Below are positions 7,602 to 39,112 of a DNA stretch of 39,112 nt, in pieces; position 1 is the first letter of the stretch; each line of letters begins with the position of its first letter. The notes under the pieces are model-generated. The model was not told where the DNA came from. It saw only the letters and a list, made by a program, of their open reading frames with translations, and ran no database searches. Made by a program: the position numbers and the translations under genes. Source of the DNA: a virus. The DNA is taken from IMG/VR virus record IMGVR_UViG_3300040808_002028, positions 1-39,112 of that record; one strand, given 5' to 3'.

Positions 7602-9769
7602 TAGATCCTCGGTTTTTTAACTTTATCTTTTATTCTTTTATGTTTAAATACTTGTTCTATAGAAGGAGGTTCATTAGTCAACATACCTGTAGGTATTGTC
7701 ATATTTTGATTAAAATCTAGTGTAGCATCTCTTTTTGCTCTAGGTTTTAATTTACTAATATAAGATTGTACAGCAGCCTTATCTTGCTCTGTAACAGCCT
7801 TACCATTCCAGCCTAAACCAGGCATTAAGAATTTATTTAGTTCAGGAGTTTCTAAAATTAATTTAGCTACTACATCAGCATTTTCACTTCTAAAAGCTTC
7901 TTCTAAAGTATCTCTTAATTCAGGATTAATATCATTAGCTACAGTTAATAAAGAATCTTTTCTAGCTATTAAATCTCCATTAGTTCTATTTAATGGTTGT
8001 TCTCCTAAATCTACTTCAGCACCTAAAGTTAATACATTTTCATAAAATTCTTGACTAGATACATCCGAAGCTACTGCTATAGTTTCTAATCTTCTAGCAT
8101 ATTTACCAGGATTCTTTTTAGCCGCATCTACTATTCTATGTAAACCTAATGTAAAAGCTTTATTTACTCTAGGGTTAGATGCTAAGATAGCTAAGGCACC
8201 AATTGTAGTACCTGCTGTACTTGGCTCTACTCCAAAAGCATATCCAGCAGTAGCAGCACCGATTGTCATCTTACCCCAACTATCTCTAAATAACTTATTA
8301 AAAGTTTTTACCCCTGTAGAATTTTCTACTCTATCTAATAATAACTTATCTACATTTACTAAATCTCTATATTTTTGAGCAGAATTTCTATATAGATCAT
8401 ATAGCTCAGCATTTTCTCCACCTAATTTATGAGAAACTCTTTTTACTTGCTTATCTACAAAATGATGTACTTCATCTCTAATTCTTTTTAAATGATATGC
8501 TTCTTGAGATACTTTACCTTTTTCTACAATAATCTCTCCAATCTCATCACTTATTTGATTTTTATAACTAACTAAATCAGATAGACTCCAATCCTTTAAA
8601 ATTCTTTTAGGAACTTCTATAGGCTCTTGTCCAACATCTACTCCCATCGCTGGTTTAGACATTTTAATAGTTGCTCCAGATGGATCATCCATAAAAAATT
8701 CTTCATCCAATTTTTGTTTTAATTTATTCTTTAATTTTAATAATTTTTTAGAAGATATTTTAGCTTCATCTGCTGGAATCTCATCTATAACTCTTCTATT
8801 TAAAGTAGATATTAATCCATTTACATCTGATTTTTGTAATATACCTGTTTCCTCTATAGATGAAACTATTTTACCTAAATCTTCACCTGTATCTAATAAA
8901 GATTTGTGAACAGATTGTAAAGCGGTTTCTGTATTATCCCAGCTCTTTAAAACATACTCTCCATCTTTATCTACATAATCAGACATTCTTTCAAAGAATT
9001 TTGCATGATCTTCTTTTTTTCTAATATTAAACATTTTATTAAATGTTTTAGTTTCATCTGATAAAAATTCTATTAGAGCTGTAGGAGCTACTTTATCTTT
9101 AGCAAATCCTACAACAGCTCCTCCAGTTTTAGTAACTCCTTCTATTATCCCTGCTGCACTCGCCGTAGATTCAGCACCTTCTAAACCTGCTTGAAATCTT
9201 CCACCAATGGTTTCCGCATTACTTATTCCAGAACCATGTATAAAACCTTCAGCCCCTGCTAAAGATAATCTTCCTACTAAAGATTTTGTTACCTGAGGAG
9301 CAATACCTCCTACCAAAGATCCTGAACCAAGTGTACCTAAAACTTGACCTGCTGCAAAAGCATTAGGATTTTTTTCTTTTAATTCTTTAATACCTCTGTC
9401 AAAAGCAGAATGTACTTTATTATAGTTTTCTTTCCAAGTTGGTAGGAAATTATCAAATCCTGCCATACCTTGCTCAGCTAATTGTTTCTTTGTATTTTCT
9501 ATAGTTTGTGCTGTAGCAATGGCTGCTGAAGTAATCTCATCTCCATAGCCTAGGCTAAGACCCTCTCCAAGACCTAGCATCGCAGCTCTATTATCATCAT
9601 GGATATTTTTAATTTGTTCAGATTGTAATTCTTCAGATGTAGCTTGATCATACATAGCTTGAGTATTTTTAACATTACCTTCAAGAGCTTGTATAACTAT
9701 TTGTTGCTCTTCTTTAGAAAGCTGGTCAAACTCTTCATCTGTCATTTGATTAATTTTTTCTAAATCCAT
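7601..9769 (-). CDS. Large internal/ejection virion protein
   Basis: 722 residues, last and largest of the run of ejection-type genes between nozzle and lysis cassette. Residues about 60-235 are Gly/Ala-rich with hydrophobic helices (LGLGEGLSLGYGDEITSAAI; AAGQVLGTLGSGSLVGGIAP; STASAAGIIEGV), then long charged helical regions, and another Ala/Gly-rich stretch near 500-540. Such amphipathic proteins are carried in the podovirus head and form a channel across the host envelope during DNA entry. No lytic transglycosylase motif seen. Assignment rests on position, size and composition. Confidence 0.6.
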   Translation of the reverse strand: MDLEKINQMTDEEFDQLSKEEQQIVIQALEGNVKNTQAMYDQATSEELQSEQIKNIHDDNRAAMLGLGEGLSLGYGDEITSAAIATAQTIENTKKQLAEQGMAGFDNFLPTWKENYNKVHSAFDRGIKELKEKNPNAFAAGQVLGTLGSGSLVGGIAPQVTKSLVGRLSLAGAEGFIHGSGISNAETIGGRFQAGLEGAESTASAAGIIEGVTKTGGAVVGFAKDKVAPTALIEFLSDETKTFNKMFNIRKKEDHAKFFERMSDYVDKDGEYVLKSWDNTETALQSVHKSLLDTGEDLGKIVSSIEETGILQKSDVNGLISTLNRRVIDEIPADEAKISSKKLLKLKNKLKQKLDEEFFMDDPSGATIKMSKPAMGVDVGQEPIEVPKRILKDWSLSDLVSYKNQISDEIGEIIVEKGKVSQEAYHLKRIRDEVHHFVDKQVKRVSHKLGGENAELYDLYRNSAQKYRDLVNVDKLLLDRVENSTGVKTFNKLFRDSWGKMTIGAATAGYAFGVEPSTAGTTIGALAILASNPRVNKAFTLGLHRIVDAAKKNPGKYARRLETIAVASDVSSQEFYENVLTLGAEVDLGEQPLNRTNGDLIARKDSLLTVANDINPELRDTLEEAFRSENADVVAKLILETPELNKFLMPGLGWNGKAVTEQDKAAVQSYISKLKPRAKRDATLDFNQNMTIPTGMLTNEPPSIEQVFKHKRIKDKVKKPRI

Positions 9770-31463: not shown

Positions 31464-31859
31464 ATGAAATTTAGTACAGAAATAGCGATTATATCCGCAG
31501 AGCTTGACTCACAACCTAAGGCACGAAATAAACAACGTACAGAAGCTCTGTTTGCCCATTTAAATGAGCGTGGTTTTAATCCAGTGCCTGTCAATGGTGT
31601 TTATAAAGGTTCTGTTGAGCAATCATTTTTAGTTCGTTTACGTGATGAATCAGATTTACTTTATTTAGAGGACCTTGCTTTTACCATTTTTAAGCAAGAG
31701 TCCATTTTGGTCCAATATAGTGATGGTCATTCACGTTTACATTATAATGATGCTATAGAATACCTTGGCAGACTCACAGAATTGCCTGTAACAGACGCTA
31801 TAAAACTAGACTCCTATAGTTATGTACCTTCAATCAACAAGTATTACGGGATAAGATAA
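31464..31859 (+). CDS. First early gene, conserved phage protein (DUF3293-like pattern), 131 aa
   Basis: Opens the rightward block behind an AGGAG site. Features: STEIAIISAELDSQPKARNK with conserved charged residues, a helix, GVYKGSVEQSFLVRL, then FTIFKQESILVQYSDGHSRL, where KQESIL followed by a short strand pair recalls DUF3293-type proteins found early in many podoviruses. Function unknown; early position suggests host takeover or regulation. The next gene starts at its stop (TAATG). Confidence 0.6.
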   Translation: MKFSTEIAIISAELDSQPKARNKQRTEALFAHLNERGFNPVPVNGVYKGSVEQSFLVRLRDESDLLYLEDLAFTIFKQESILVQYSDGHSRLHYNDAIEYLGRLTELPVTDAIKLDSYSYVPSINKYYGIR

Positions 31860-34294: not shown

Positions 34295-34443
34295 TGTACG
34301 AAAAATTAATGCATGAAAATTTTAGTTTATATCAATACTTTCTACGTTGTGAAGCACAGCGGAAGGAAGAAGCTCGACGGAAACGTGTAGAAGATGATGG
34401 TCCTTGTCATGAGGAAGCTTCCGAGACCGGAGATCAACGATGA
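34294..34443 (+). CDS. Possible small protein antisense to rusA, 49 aa
   Basis: ATG shares a base with the preceding stop and follows TAGGAG. The N-terminal 10 codons are free; the rest (34322-34443) lies antisense to the RusA 3' end. Codons there use CGG/CGA/CGT for Arg, unlike the AGA-rich neighbours, which may simply reflect the RusA strand. Arg/Glu-rich helix (AQRKEEARRKRVEDD). Confidence 0.4.
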   Translation: MYEKLMHENFSLYQYFLRCEAQRKEEARRKRVEDDGPCHEEASETGDQR

Positions 34444-34813
34444 ACTTGTCGTCTATATCAAAGTTTTGTATGACAACGCCATCTATTTCTCTTCCATTGT
34501 ATCGGGATTCAAATAGGTTGTCCTGGACTAACTTCTCAATGTTTGTTAAGTCCATTGATCGGCGAGATATCTCACCTTTCTTGGTGAAAAGGAGTTCACG
34601 TGGATAAAGAAAGTCGTAGGTCACTCGCACTGCGTTTTTTGACGGTTGGAATAATTTTCGGACTTGTTGGATCTTTGCTTGGACCTCATCTTGCATCAGT
34701 TGAACCAGAAAATTTGAACGCCATTTACGTGCTTCTTTTGTCAACTGCCGGTTTCTGTAGTATGCGGAGTTAAGGCTAAAGGGAGGTGATTTAATGGTAA
34801 AAGAGACTAACAT
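34322..34813 (-). CDS. rusA: RusA-like Holliday junction resolvase
   Basis: 163 residues from ATG 34813 (an in-frame ATG at 34831 is upstream of the promoter -10 box and so unlikely). RusA features: N-terminal LVSFTIKSPPFSLNSAYYRN strand-loop, the motif D88-LTN-IEK-LVQ-D98 and FDIDDKF with acidic D119-x-D121-D122, corresponding to the metal-binding aspartates. The enzyme would resolve recombination or packaging branches. It is the only minus-strand gene in the rightward block, appears GC-richer than its neighbours and has its own extended -10 promoter with no ribosome site: an inserted, independently expressed unit. Confidence 0.8.
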   Translation of the reverse strand: MLVSFTIKSPPFSLNSAYYRNRQLTKEARKWRSNFLVQLMQDEVQAKIQQVRKLFQPSKNAVRVTYDFLYPRELLFTKKGEISRRSMDLTNIEKLVQDNLFESRYNGREIDGVVIQNFDIDDKFIVDLRSRKLPHDKDHHLLHVSVELLPSAVLHNVESIDIN

Positions 34814-34958
34814 GCAAGAATTATACCACACTTTTAGAGAATCCGGTATCGTTAAGTTTACTGAATTCCTAGATAAACGTGAGAAGTGTAAGTTTTGTAA
34901 GGAAAATTGTGGGCATCCTTGGTGTCCCGTTAATCAGGAGAAGAAAGATGACAAATAA
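34794..34958 (+). CDS. Small Cys-cluster protein, 54 aa
   Basis: ATG follows GGGAGGTGAT. C32-x2-C35-x3-C39 then CGHPWC44P provide four Cys and a His for one zinc. The HPWCP ending matches the protein at 3432-3722. The first 20 nt overlap the RusA start on the other strand, so the two transcripts are divergent and overlapping. Function unknown. Confidence 0.65.
   Translation: MVKETNMQELYHTFRESGIVKFTEFLDKREKCKFCKENCGHPWCPVNQEKKDDK
34820..34828 (-). promoter_or_regulatory. Extended -10 promoter for rusA
   Basis: On the minus strand TGG-TATAAT (TG-N-TATAAT, perfect), with the hexamer at 34820-34825 ending 6 nt before ATG 34813. The predicted +1 is the A of the start codon; no SD is present, so the mRNA should be leaderless. 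No convincing -35. Confidence 0.65.
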
Positions 34959-35470: not shown

Positions 35471-35477
35471 TATAAAC

Positions 35478-35570
35478 ATGTCTAATAAACATTCTATGTT
35501 TAGTAATGTCTTAAGACTAGTTTATATATTAATTATAGGAATTGTCAAGAAAAAAATTAAAATAAAGTAA
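35478..35570 (+). CDS. Possible TM micropeptide, 30 aa
   Basis: A short frame with a hydrophobic core (NVLRLVYILIIGIV) and Lys-rich tail, in an otherwise empty 115-bp stretch. No ribosome site is evident near the ATG, so support is weak; its character fits the membrane peptides nearby. Confidence 0.25.
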   Translation: MSNKHSMFSNVLRLVYILIIGIVKKKIKIK

Positions 35571-35585
35571 AAAAAGAGGTAACTT

Positions 35586-35774
35586 ATGAATATTATGTTT
35601 CTTTTACTGGTAATAGTTTTGTCTGGGAGACATGGATATGAGGCAGGGCGAGCGTCGATTACCCAAAAAGGTGCAAAAAAGGTGCAAAAGGGTGCAAAAA
35701 GGTGCAATTTTAACAAAAAAGGTGCAGAAAGGTGCATTTTGATAGAAAGAATACACGACGGGAATCGTAAATGA
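35586..35774 (+). CDS. Possible small protein with N-terminal hydrophobic segment, over repeat array, 62 aa
   Basis: ATG behind AAGAGGT; NIMFLLLVIVLSGRHG looks like a short signal or anchor. The rest is translated repeat DNA (QKGAKKVQKGAKRCNFNKKG). Because the repeat unit is 10-11 bp, the reading frame shifts from unit to unit, so the array was not built for the protein. ATGA overlap with the next gene argues that the frame is translated. Confidence 0.4.
   Translation: MNIMFLLLVIVLSGRHGYEAGRASITQKGAKKVQKGAKRCNFNKKGAERCILIERIHDGNRK
35665..35736. repeat. Phased A-tract/GGTGCA iteron array
   Basis: Six GGTGCA cores begin at 35670, 35681, 35691, 35701, 35721 and 35731, each preceded by an A-tract of three to six bases; one position (35711) is replaced by AT-rich sequence. 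The 10-11 bp step equals one helical turn, so the A-tracts should add up to strong curvature, and the cores face one side of the helix. Candidate origin, partition-like or regulatory binding array. Confidence 0.8.
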
Positions 35775-36028
35775 TTGGTTGGATAGGCGGCATATGTCTT
35801 GCAATATGTGCGTTACCAGAAGTAATACAGTGCCTTAGGAAGGGAAACACGGGCTGCTCATGGGGTTTATTAACCTTATGGACTATAGGCGAAATATGCC
35901 TACTGATCGTTGAGTTAGACTCACCTTACCTACCTAGAGTATTTAATTATATTTTTAATATTATTTGTCTATCAATATTACTTTTTTATAAGTATAATAA
36001 TTATAGGAGCAAAAACAATGATAAATGA
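35771..36028 (+). CDS. Three-TM PQ-loop/SemiSWEET-like membrane protein
   Basis: 85 residues with three hydrophobic helices (about 2-20, 30-48, 56-74). GWIGGICLAICALPEVIQCL followed by RKGNTGCSWGLL resembles the PQ-loop signature (P-Q then basic residue and a G/S turn), with Pro16-Glu17 in place of Pro-Gln. SemiSWEETs of this size dimerise to transport sugars; PQ-loop proteins also carry other solutes. Phage function unknown; transport is inferred from the fold only. Confidence 0.5.
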   Translation: MIGWIGGICLAICALPEVIQCLRKGNTGCSWGLLTLWTIGEICLLIVELDSPYLPRVFNYIFNIICLSILLFYKYNNYRSKNNDK

Positions 36029-36389
36029 ATTAATTATAGGAGGGTTGGTACACCACTTTACCGACGTTACTCCAATTGAAAACACGTCGCTTAGGCTTAA
36101 TGCTATAGCAAAAGTCAATGAGTTCAATATCTTAGTAGGACAAAATTCTATTAAAGAACCTATTTATGGGTTTGGTTATGACATACCAATAAATAGATTT
36201 ATGGATTTTAAATTTGGTGCTTATTTTCAAGACAGTAGTAAATTTCTTGACTACGGATATGTTATACCTACTGGAAATGTTATGCCTATAGTTGGTATGG
36301 AATTTGATATACCAATAACACAAAACATTGGAATAACAACAACTGTTACACCATTAATGAGTTTTACAGGATTAAGTTTTAGGTTTTAA
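36018..36389 (+). CDS. Small outer-membrane-like beta-barrel protein, 123 aa
   Basis: Amphipathic strands throughout (INAFNILVG-type alternation; FKFGAYFQDSSKFLDYGYVI; MPIVGMEFDIPITQNIGITT) and a C-terminal LSFRF with terminal Phe, the usual barrel-ending signature. GQNSIKEPIYGFGYDI resembles small phage barrels of PagP-like appearance. There is no clear signal peptide at this start, which is odd for an outer-membrane protein. Ribosome site AGGAGC. Confidence 0.5.
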   Translation: MINELIIGGLVHHFTDVTPIENTSLRLNAIAKVNEFNILVGQNSIKEPIYGFGYDIPINRFMDFKFGAYFQDSSKFLDYGYVIPTGNVMPIVGMEFDIPITQNIGITTTVTPLMSFTGLSFRF

Positions 36390-36391
36390 AT

Positions 36392-36553
36392 ATGATTAAG
36401 TTTATAAAAACAGCACATCACTTTGATAACTTAGATGAAACCGATGGAATGGTTATTGAAATCAATACGGATGGACAAACATTAGGTGAGATTGCTGAGG
36501 CTTTTAATAAATTCCTACACTCATGTGGGTTTGATGTTGCGGATGAGGAATAA
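36392..36553 (+). CDS. Small phage protein, 53 aa
   Basis: Acidic alpha/beta peptide: IKFIKTAHHFDNLDETDGM, VIEINTDGQTLGEIAEAFNK, FLHSCGFDV. It ends 2 nt before the PrimPol-helicase start, whose ribosome site (GAGGAA) lies in its final codons. No convincing SD of its own. Function unknown. Confidence 0.6.
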   Translation: MIKFIKTAHHFDNLDETDGMVIEINTDGQTLGEIAEAFNKFLHSCGFDVADEE

Positions 36554-36555
36554 GA

Positions 36556-38673
36556 ATGAATAAAATGAACTTATATAAAGAATACGTTGATGAGTTTACT
36601 AAGGCAGGACTATCAGTTATACCTGATAAGTTTATGATGAAAACTCCAGCTATTAAAGCATGGAGTGATTATTGTACACGCAAGCCAACTCAGGAAGAGA
36701 TTGATTCATGGAAAGAATCGTTTGACTCATCTAATATATCGGTATGTTTAGGAGAGGCATCTGGTATCGTAGCTTTAGATATGGACGCCATGGATCCTGA
36801 GATTGCGGAGTTAATCACGAAGTTTGCTCCAACTTCTCCGGTTGAAAAAGTAGGTTCTAAGGGGTGGACTAGATTTTTCAGATGGCATCCAACATTGAAT
36901 ACGGATATTCTTAAGTACAATGGTGAGGTTATGGTCGAGCTCTTATCGAATGGTAAGAAAACAACTATCCCTCCGTCTGTACATCCTAATGGGGAAACGT
37001 ATAAGTGGACGGGTAAAAGCCTCACCGAGGTAGCAATCCAAGATTTACCAGCACTTCCACCAAGCGTTCTCCCTTTTTTAGGTCAAAAGATCAGAGAACT
37101 CAAAGGAGGAGAAGCACCTAGTTATAATAAAATCATTAATGGACGTAATGATGCATTAACTAAGTTTACTTCTGAATTAATTAATGACAAAGTTCCTCTA
37201 GGGGAAGCAATTAAAAAACTAATTAAGTTTGATGAGGAGAATCATGAAACTCCACTATTTACCGATACGACTGAGTTTCGGCATACTGAGGCTTTTACTA
37301 ACGCTCTTACTCTTTATACCAACTGCCTTAATTCTTTTAATGGTAAGCGTTTTCAAACCAATAAAGAGTACGAGACTCCCATAATTCCAGACGTTGTGGA
37401 GGTTGAGCCGGGAAAGCAAAGAAGCGAGCACCAAAAAAGTTACGACAACCCCGAGTTACCGAAGCCGGAAGGTGTCCTCGCTGTAATCATGAACTACATT
37501 CTAGCGAATAGTTATATTGAACAACCAGCATTCGCCTTTTCAGCAGCATTATCTATCATGGCTACATTAGCAGGTAGAAAGTTTGAGTTTGAAGGTGTTG
37601 CTCCTAACTTGTACATATTGAACGTAGCTCCATCAGGTTCGGGTAAAAATGCTCCACAAGAAAAACTAAAAGATATTTTAATTGATATAAAATGTGAACA
37701 TTTACTTGGTGCCGGTGATTACGTTTCCGATGCATCATTAATGGACTCTCTGCCAGAATCTCCAGTAAGACTCGATATAATTGATGAAGCTGGAGGAATG
37801 TTAAAAAGTGTTAATCGAGGAGGTGCAACATATAACGGTAAAATGGCAGACATACTAGCAGAACTATATACTTCATCAACGTCTATATTCTTAGGAAGGC
37901 AGACTGCGATGGGTCACAAAGGACGATCTATTAGACCAAACGTAAATCTTTTATGCTCCACAACTCCAACAGGCTTAGCAGAGGGTGTCTCTGTAACAGC
38001 AATTGAAAAAGGTTTAATGGGTCGTTTTCTTGTGTTTCAAGGATTCTATAATAAAAAAGCAAGACGAGTAGAAAATGTAACCAGGCTACCTAAGGACGCA
38101 GTGAATAGCTTAATTACATTAGCTGGTTATCAACCTAAGAAAGGTACTGTAGAAATTGCAGGGATTTCTCAGGACATAACTGTTTTAGAAAAAACAGAAG
38201 CAGCTAATCAAATGCTACAACATGTATTTGAAGAGTTTGATACTTTAAGAGTAGAGAGTGAACATGATGATAAACTATTACCAATTATCTCACGTTTATA
38301 TCAACAAACATTAAAGATAACTATGTTACATGCAATCTCTAGAAACATTTATAAAGAACCAATAGTAGATGTAAAAGATGTAGAGTTTGGTTATTTAACA
38401 ATTAAAAATTATTTTGCTACGATTAAACAAGTAATTAAAGAATCTATTTTCTCTTCACAAAATGAAGAACATACTCAAAAGATTTTAAATATAATTAATA
38501 AAGCAGAGGATGAGGGAATTACTAAAAAACAATTGTCTCAAAAAACAAGATTCTTAAATAAAAAACAAAGGGATTCAGTAATGGAAGAGTTAATTGAAAG
38601 CGGTGAAGTAGAGTTAGTAAGTGTAAACATTGATGGAAGAATCTCTTATAGATATAGGGGGAAAAATGCTTAA
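36556..38673 (+). CDS. PrimPol-DUF3987 helicase fusion (replicative primase-helicase)
   Basis: 705 residues. Residues 1-175 are a bifunctional primase-polymerase domain: catalytic D75-M-D77, conserved VELLSNG and H143 in PPSVHPNGETYKW. A linker (190-295) leads to a DUF3987-type ATPase: FAFSAALSIMATLAG, Walker A A358-PSGSGKN365, Walker B D407-II-D410-E411, sensor-like NLLCSTTP (464-471) and arginine region EKGLMGRFLVF. A winged-helix-like C-terminus follows (EGITKKQLSQKTRFLNK). It would prime and unwind at the fork for PolA. The exonuclease gene starts 8 nt before its stop. Confidence 0.85.
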   Translation: MNKMNLYKEYVDEFTKAGLSVIPDKFMMKTPAIKAWSDYCTRKPTQEEIDSWKESFDSSNISVCLGEASGIVALDMDAMDPEIAELITKFAPTSPVEKVGSKGWTRFFRWHPTLNTDILKYNGEVMVELLSNGKKTTIPPSVHPNGETYKWTGKSLTEVAIQDLPALPPSVLPFLGQKIRELKGGEAPSYNKIINGRNDALTKFTSELINDKVPLGEAIKKLIKFDEENHETPLFTDTTEFRHTEAFTNALTLYTNCLNSFNGKRFQTNKEYETPIIPDVVEVEPGKQRSEHQKSYDNPELPKPEGVLAVIMNYILANSYIEQPAFAFSAALSIMATLAGRKFEFEGVAPNLYILNVAPSGSGKNAPQEKLKDILIDIKCEHLLGAGDYVSDASLMDSLPESPVRLDIIDEAGGMLKSVNRGGATYNGKMADILAELYTSSTSIFLGRQTAMGHKGRSIRPNVNLLCSTTPTGLAEGVSVTAIEKGLMGRFLVFQGFYNKKARRVENVTRLPKDAVNSLITLAGYQPKKGTVEIAGISQDITVLEKTEAANQMLQHVFEEFDTLRVESEHDDKLLPIISRLYQQTLKITMLHAISRNIYKEPIVDVKDVEFGYLTIKNYFATIKQVIKESIFSSQNEEHTQKILNIINKAEDEGITKKQLSQKTRFLNKKQRDSVMEELIESGEVELVSVNIDGRISYRYRGKNA

Positions 38674-39112
38674 GTATGGAATTAATGATGTTGATAATGA
38701 AACATATCATTCTGATAGAAAATTTAAATCTAGTTCTACATTAAAATTATTTTTAAAAGATCCTAGAGAATTTTATAAAAGATATGTTTTAAATGAAACT
38801 AAGGAAGAGATGTATAAAAGTGCGTATGACTTTGGTTCTTATGTACACTCCCTAATATTAGAACCTCATTTAACAGATAGTGAGTTTGCAGTATTTGAAG
38901 GAGTTACTAGAAGAGGTAAAGCATACGACGAATTTAAAGCATTACATGAAGGTAAAACCATATTAACAGCCTCTCAGGCACAACAAGCACAGGATTTAGT
39001 TGACGTATATAAAGAGAACCCTGACACTAATGGTATTATTTGCGATGGTAAAGCTGAGCACACCGTCTGCGTTAGCTTGGATGGCATGGATATTAAGGTT
39101 CGTACTGATTAT
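38666..39112 (+). CDS. PD-(D/E)XK exonuclease (exoVIII/RecE-like), N-terminal part, continues at base 1
   Basis: First 149 codons of the 266-residue exonuclease; codon 101 is at 38966 and repeats the frame at base 1. The N-terminus has YGINDVDNETYHSD, KSSSTLKLFLKDPREFY and FGSYVHSLILEP (G57, H61), the usual opening helices and Ser/His motif of the family, before catalytic E131 and D148. ATG 38666 has AGGGGGA upstream and lies inside the 3' end of the helicase gene. Truncation at 39112 is only the window edge. Confidence 0.85.
   Translation, partial: MLKYGINDVDNETYHSDRKFKSSSTLKLFLKDPREFYKRYVLNETKEEMYKSAYDFGSYVHSLILEPHLTDSEFAVFEGVTRRGKAYDEFKALHEGKTILTASQAQQAQDLVDVYKENPDTNGIICDGKAEHTVCVSLDGMDIKVRTDY
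38966..39112. repeat. Terminal overlap, right copy
   Basis: Second copy of bases 1-147, differing only at 38986 (A, against G at 21). Marks the point where the genome closes on itself. Confidence 0.9.

Follow-up and report, generated by a model that had tools for sequence, protein, structure and literature searches.

At the head of the replication operon of the virus studied here we found an array of six short direct repeats, each made up of an A-rich run and a GGTGCA core, which is a genuine DNA-level element with conserved helical phase. The stretch analysed, hereafter the window, is one whole IMG/VR virus record of 39,112 nucleotides. On balance we lean towards the interpretation that the repeats are initiator-binding iterons and that, together with the AT-rich block upstream, they form the replication origin of the phage, or one of its origins. 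By analogy with the type I iterons of P4 they are best read as binding sites for the C-terminal domain of the primase. Array binding, melting, origin activity and autoregulation we infer as candidate functions. If the interpretation is true, an origin and its reader would be assigned for a group of Prim-Pol/DUF3987 phages.

Layout of the array and its surroundings

The exact GGTGCA cores start at positions 35670, 35681, 35691, 35701, 35721 and 35731 and are thus spaced 11, 10, 10, 20 and 10 bp apart, precisely as the original prediction had given them; the A-rich run which it had placed before each core was found in all six cases, the final run being GAAA. Four units read AAAAGGTGCA, and one each AAAGGGTGCA and GAAAGGTGCA. 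Searching the 39-kb record for phased chains of at least five units returned this array alone, and no such chain occurred in 12 dinucleotide-preserving shuffles of the record. With at most one mismatch allowed, AAAAGGTGCA gave ten matches against 3.6 ± 1.9 expected, six of the ten lying within the array. The coordinates of the array and of the surrounding features are collected in Table 1.

Table 1. Features of the window around the phased array and the primase-helicase gene
Feature	Positions	Strand	Basis or remark
Conserved RusA-like resolvase gene, opposite side of the array region	34322–34831	-	
AT-rich block, 81% AT, candidate unwinding element	35471–35585		99.5th percentile of 115-bp stretches
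ORF enclosing the array, protein not conserved	35586–35774	+	
Conserved element of the relatives, TACTGGATTAATATATRAGGGGGCGCG, in diverged form, GC-rich 3' end near the array	35604–35654	+	
Predicted curvature maximum of the entire record	35649–35724		Dinucleotide-wedge model
Phased array, six A-run + GGTGCA units, candidate iterons	35665–35736	+	Eight relatives with matching format and place
Degenerate or skipped turn of the array, ATTTTAACAA	35707–35716	+	
First conserved gene past the array, 85 aa, resembles a small membrane protein	35771–36028	+	
Conserved 123-aa gene	36018–36389	+	
Conserved 53-aa gene	36392–36553	+	
Prim-Pol + DUF3987 primase-helicase, 705 aa, proposed initiator	36556–38673	+	
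Primase C-terminal winged-helix domain, residues 639–705, proposed array reader	38470–38670	+	Predicted fold; covariation

The first and last 147 bp of the record (1–147 and 38966–39112), which lie in the DUF3799 nuclease gene, repeat each other in direct orientation with a single mismatch, and therefore the record is probably complete, its map being circularly closed or nearly so. Structural genes are directed leftward, early and replication genes rightward. To the left of the array lies the leftward RusA-like gene and to its right a rightward operon whose last gene encodes the Prim-Pol/DUF3987 primase-helicase. This gene begins about 0.8 kb downstream of the array and is followed by genes for the DUF3799 nuclease, a DUF669 protein and a family-A polymerase. 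The 85-aa protein encoded just past the array had no match in PHROG and Pfam. The early rightward module also contains a gene of the S-adenosylmethionine lyase family (31464–31859, Pfam PF23780), which is likely to serve anti-restriction. A scan of bacterial genomes for relatives and a host yielded no genome encoding a relative.

In the window the AT-rich block is followed by a GC-rich stretch (35640–35664, 68% GC) shortly before the array. Iteron-type origins of the P4/SaPI style are built from tandem short direct repeats in helical register, an AT-rich neighbour and a nearby initiator gene with a DNA-binding domain; here the array supplies the repeats and the register, positions 35471–35585 the AT-rich neighbour, and the primase-helicase with its predicted winged helix the initiator. 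Read in this way, the head of the operon, with its AT-rich block, its GC-rich stretch and its curved phased array, is organised like an iteron origin. A GTCAAG tract inside the AT-rich block is conserved among relatives. On the minus strand the same block carries a promoter-like TTGACA/TAAACT pair (35548–35519) directed leftward.

Intrinsic curvature had been predicted for the array. In a dinucleotide-wedge model the array is predicted to bend by about 141 degrees over 75 bp, and the highest value of the record, 145 degrees, begins at 35649, which agrees with the prediction. A-tract phasing at a 10.5-bp period also peaks at the array, and in the seven relatives tested the predicted curvature at the array reached at least the 99.5th percentile. 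Cumulative GC skew had been suggested as a further guide to an origin; it mirrors the divergent transcription and gives no origin position, and an origin call by skew was dropped.

The open reading frame around the array, described in the original prediction as an early-region frame, does not correspond to a conserved gene; in the relatives the homologous frames end after 17–47 codons. As had been noted, the length of the repeat unit is not divisible by three; together with the early stops of the homologous frames, this rules out a coding repeat. Because the surrounding small ORF is not conserved, the array is a DNA rather than a peptide feature. Selection had been predicted to act on DNA or RNA and not on the peptide, and selection on DNA is supported. 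Transcription of the array, as an RNA-level element such as a protein-bound leader RNA would need, is to be expected if the upstream element acts as a promoter; RNA folding, however, showed no gain in stability over shuffles (z = -1.2), the spacings of 10, 11 and 20–22 bp and the conserved curvature indicate duplex DNA rather than RNA, and an Rfam search gave no match. A packaging signal had also been listed among the candidates, but the terminase genes are about 5 kb away and on the opposite strand. We consider an RNA element or packaging signal very improbable.

Kept phase and changing cores in the relatives

Relatives were found by primase scans, the close ones having primases about 60–65% identical to that of the window. 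In eight stretches the upstream region was covered, and all eight contain decamer-like units in the same gap. Clear chains of 5–8 units spaced by 10/11 bp are present in L124, L129, L133, L136, L138, L146 and L148, one turn being skipped within the array of L129 and the second turn in L146; the eighth array, in L132, is degenerate and scores as no chain. In the larger stretches of the relatives the only chains of at least five units were the arrays, apart from one weak chain in G003, and an off-phase spacing control gave three weak five-unit chains in total. The chain in G003 consists of five TCTCTA units with 10/11-bp spacing and lies away from the array (L160:3576–3620).

The cores themselves vary, and GGTGTA, CCTGTA, CTTGCA, ACYGTA and CGGACA were found in the relatives. 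L136 and L148 are 96% identical upstream and 84% identical downstream of the array but only 35% identical within it, and despite this both place and phase of the array are retained. Likewise, L132 and L133 share 96% identity on either side and 61% in the array. What is conserved is the format, that is an A-run, a 6-bp core and a 10/11-bp phase, and not the core sequence. The comparison thus came out in favour of the original expectation that units would vary in relatives while the 10-bp phase holds. The unusual feature is the quick switching of cores at fixed phase between near-identical flanks.

Among distant relatives, with primases 47–55% identical, no comparable array was seen upstream of the primase, and six stretches from six named phages with related primases contained no array of at least five units. 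One genome with a 47% identical primase (G014) carries a different 10-bp phased array of five TTTTGGAGAG-like units (L214:3028–3075), which is intergenic between leftward genes and rightward ClpP/terminase genes. Two further candidates were rejected: the GGACC repeats upstream in L150 look array-like by eye yet are unphased, and L183 is a chance match within a repetitive gene.

In most relatives the conserved promoter-like element TACTGGATTAATATATRAGGGGGCGCG lies about 20 bp ahead of the array; in the window it is diverged. A degenerate scan for this element gave two more matches, both without an array, and later scans for further array-bearing phages brought none that were new. The array could be mainly an operator with no origin role, to which a phage or host regulator binds and so represses or activates the replication-operon promoter in this upstream element. 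Phased A-tracts are also able to contribute to the architecture of promoters. The arrays do sit after the promoter-like element and before the first operon gene, and six relatives (G003, at 9485–9766 in L159, G004, G005, G009, G010 and G011) encode a PHB_acc_N (PhaR-type) DNA-binding protein 1–2 kb upstream. For a PhaR-type operator this gene would be expected wherever the array occurs, but the window and the near-identical contig G001 keep the array without it, which eliminates the protein as a general array reader. In addition, among the early proteins scanned no further regulator could be recognised by a DNA-binding domain, and the element of the window did not score as a sigma-70 promoter. 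We regard a purely regulatory operator as rather unlikely.

The primase C-terminal domain as candidate reader

In the favoured reading as an iteron origin, several copies of the primase-helicase would use their C-terminal winged helices to dock on the A-run + GGTGCA units, aligned on one face of the intrinsically curved segment. The complex would then melt the adjacent AT-rich block, and the bound protein would load its own helicase ring and prime, so that the phage family-A polymerase could extend. The same binding of the primase to the array would probably also repress the operon promoter, a candidate autoregulation. In plasmid Rep proteins, cooperative binding is reportedly lost when iterons are shifted by half a helical turn (PMC4980987).

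The Prim-Pol part of the window primase matches ORF904 of pRN1. Since the model of the full-length protein was of low confidence (pLDDT 56), only the C-terminal domain was interpreted; a winged-helix fold was predicted for it (pLDDT 88), and Foldseek with this domain model returned mostly winged helices, none below an E value of 1e-3.

A C-terminal domain that reads the array would be expected to change where the array does, and pairs of related primases were therefore compared for the position of their changes. L132 and L133, whose arrays differ, have six of 11 primase changes in the winged helix (p = 2e-4). An excess of changes in this domain was also seen in other pairs with differing arrays, for L136/L143 (p = 8e-7) and L133/L135 (p = 6e-8), as well as in the C-terminal domain for L136/L144, and none of the 26 changes between L134 and L135, which have identical arrays, falls in the winged helix. 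For the CTTGCA core, L143 here stands in for L148; the two contigs come from a single metagenome and were linked through 127 bp over which they overlap exactly. Over nine proteins, with shared ancestry controlled only roughly, the partial correlation between winged-helix divergence and core distance was 0.47 (permutation p = 0.024). L133 and L138 have an equal core and their last 67 aa still diverge somewhat (p = 0.056), so that ordinary fast evolution may account for some of the excess. From this small sample, the data suggest a modest covariation of the C-terminal domain with the array.

The putative recognition helix KKKERN[ED]IL is constant over GGTGTA, CCTGTA, ACYGTA and CTTGCA cores; any change of specificity would therefore have to reside in helix 2 or in the wing. 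N, S, Q and K at window residue 662 pair with GTA, GCA, GCA and ACA cores, respectively, a post hoc pattern that serves as a lead only.

As a tentative extension, which we hold less probable than not, the array may be a fast-switching identity code of the origin, in which all units of an array change together, place and phase stay fixed and the winged helix of the primase follows. Equally tentatively, such a code could render near-identical phages mutually unreadable, for instance as an escape from satellites, origin-directed nucleases or competing relatives. If the iteron reading is true, the relatives would also provide a natural series with constant spacing, curvature and flanks but swapped read sequence, which would make it possible to test directly by what code a self-loading primase-helicase recognises its sites and how quickly origin specificity changes.

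Comparison with known systems

Initiator and origin are known to covary in the Vibrio cholerae element PLE, where the DNA-binding domain of RepA and the origin repeats change together between near-identical elements and the origin is the arms-race target of the phage nuclease Odn (PMC8263062). The fast core switching among the relatives of the window resembles this, whereas the iterons of PLE are semi-palindromic, about 30 bp long and bound by a RepA_N protein, and, unlike in PLE, no antagonist is known for the phage studied here.

The P4 ori has six type I iterons, which like the units of the window contain GGTG and are 10/11 bp apart; the deposited P4 annotation gives type 1 repeats with this spacing at the ori, reading GGTGAACAG on the read strand. 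P4 alpha, a primase-helicase, is reported to bind its origin repeats by a winged helix (PMC4234260). P4 differs in its unit, in that one of the six is inverted, and in having two clusters, while additional copies are found in crr, next to the gene for alpha. The array of the window is not composed of GGTGAACAG units, its unit being A-run + GGTGCA, and GGTG alone is common to both. Moreover, the P4 primase is of the Toprim type, whereas that of the window is a Prim-Pol (AEP) with DUF3987. The likeness that we draw between the arrays is one of format.

SaPI Rep and SCCmec Cch2 recognise short repeats by their C-terminal domains, and these systems (AAGTG iterons) share with the window a self-loading helicase and repeats adjoining its own gene (PMC7581432). 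Their sites, however, lie downstream of the helicase gene, whereas the array of the window lies 0.8 kb upstream and is in strict helical phase. With pRN1 ORF904 the window primase shares, besides the Prim-Pol match, a C-terminal winged helix (PMC4234260). The pRN1 origin is different: it is reported to contain a large stem–loop and to lack iterons, and the pRN1 study found no iteron origin for the Prim-Pol replication protein (PMC4234260).

Two other kinds of repeat-bearing site were considered. Centromeres of the ParR/parC type consist of short direct repeats in helical phase, and the array could be such a partition site, to which, as in plasmids, a small DNA-binding adaptor attaches; among the proteins scanned there is, however, no ParM, ParA or TubZ motor and no ParR-like adaptor, nor an integrase or repressor suggesting a plasmid-like prophage, and we think a partition role very unlikely. 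The other kind, arm-type sites of a tyrosine integrase, is brought to mind by two unrelated contigs (L084 and L099), in which 11-bp-spaced GGTGCA arrays lie beside such integrases. An integrase gene with an attP core would belong to these sites, but no integrase was found among the window proteins scanned, and replication genes adjoin the array in every relative, which makes integrase arms the least credible alternative, with hardly any probability. Altogether, the packaging, integrase-arm, RNA and centromere readings find little support; the original interpretation as a whole is partly supported, origin iterons being the best of the readings it had listed.

In other unrelated contigs, 10/11-bp GGTGCA chains are found by replication genes, namely a Toprim primase (L058), a primase with a D5_N helicase (L090) and DnaB (L013). 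As such chains occur near both replication and integrase genes, the format is common to several kinds of site, and it is the context that decides.
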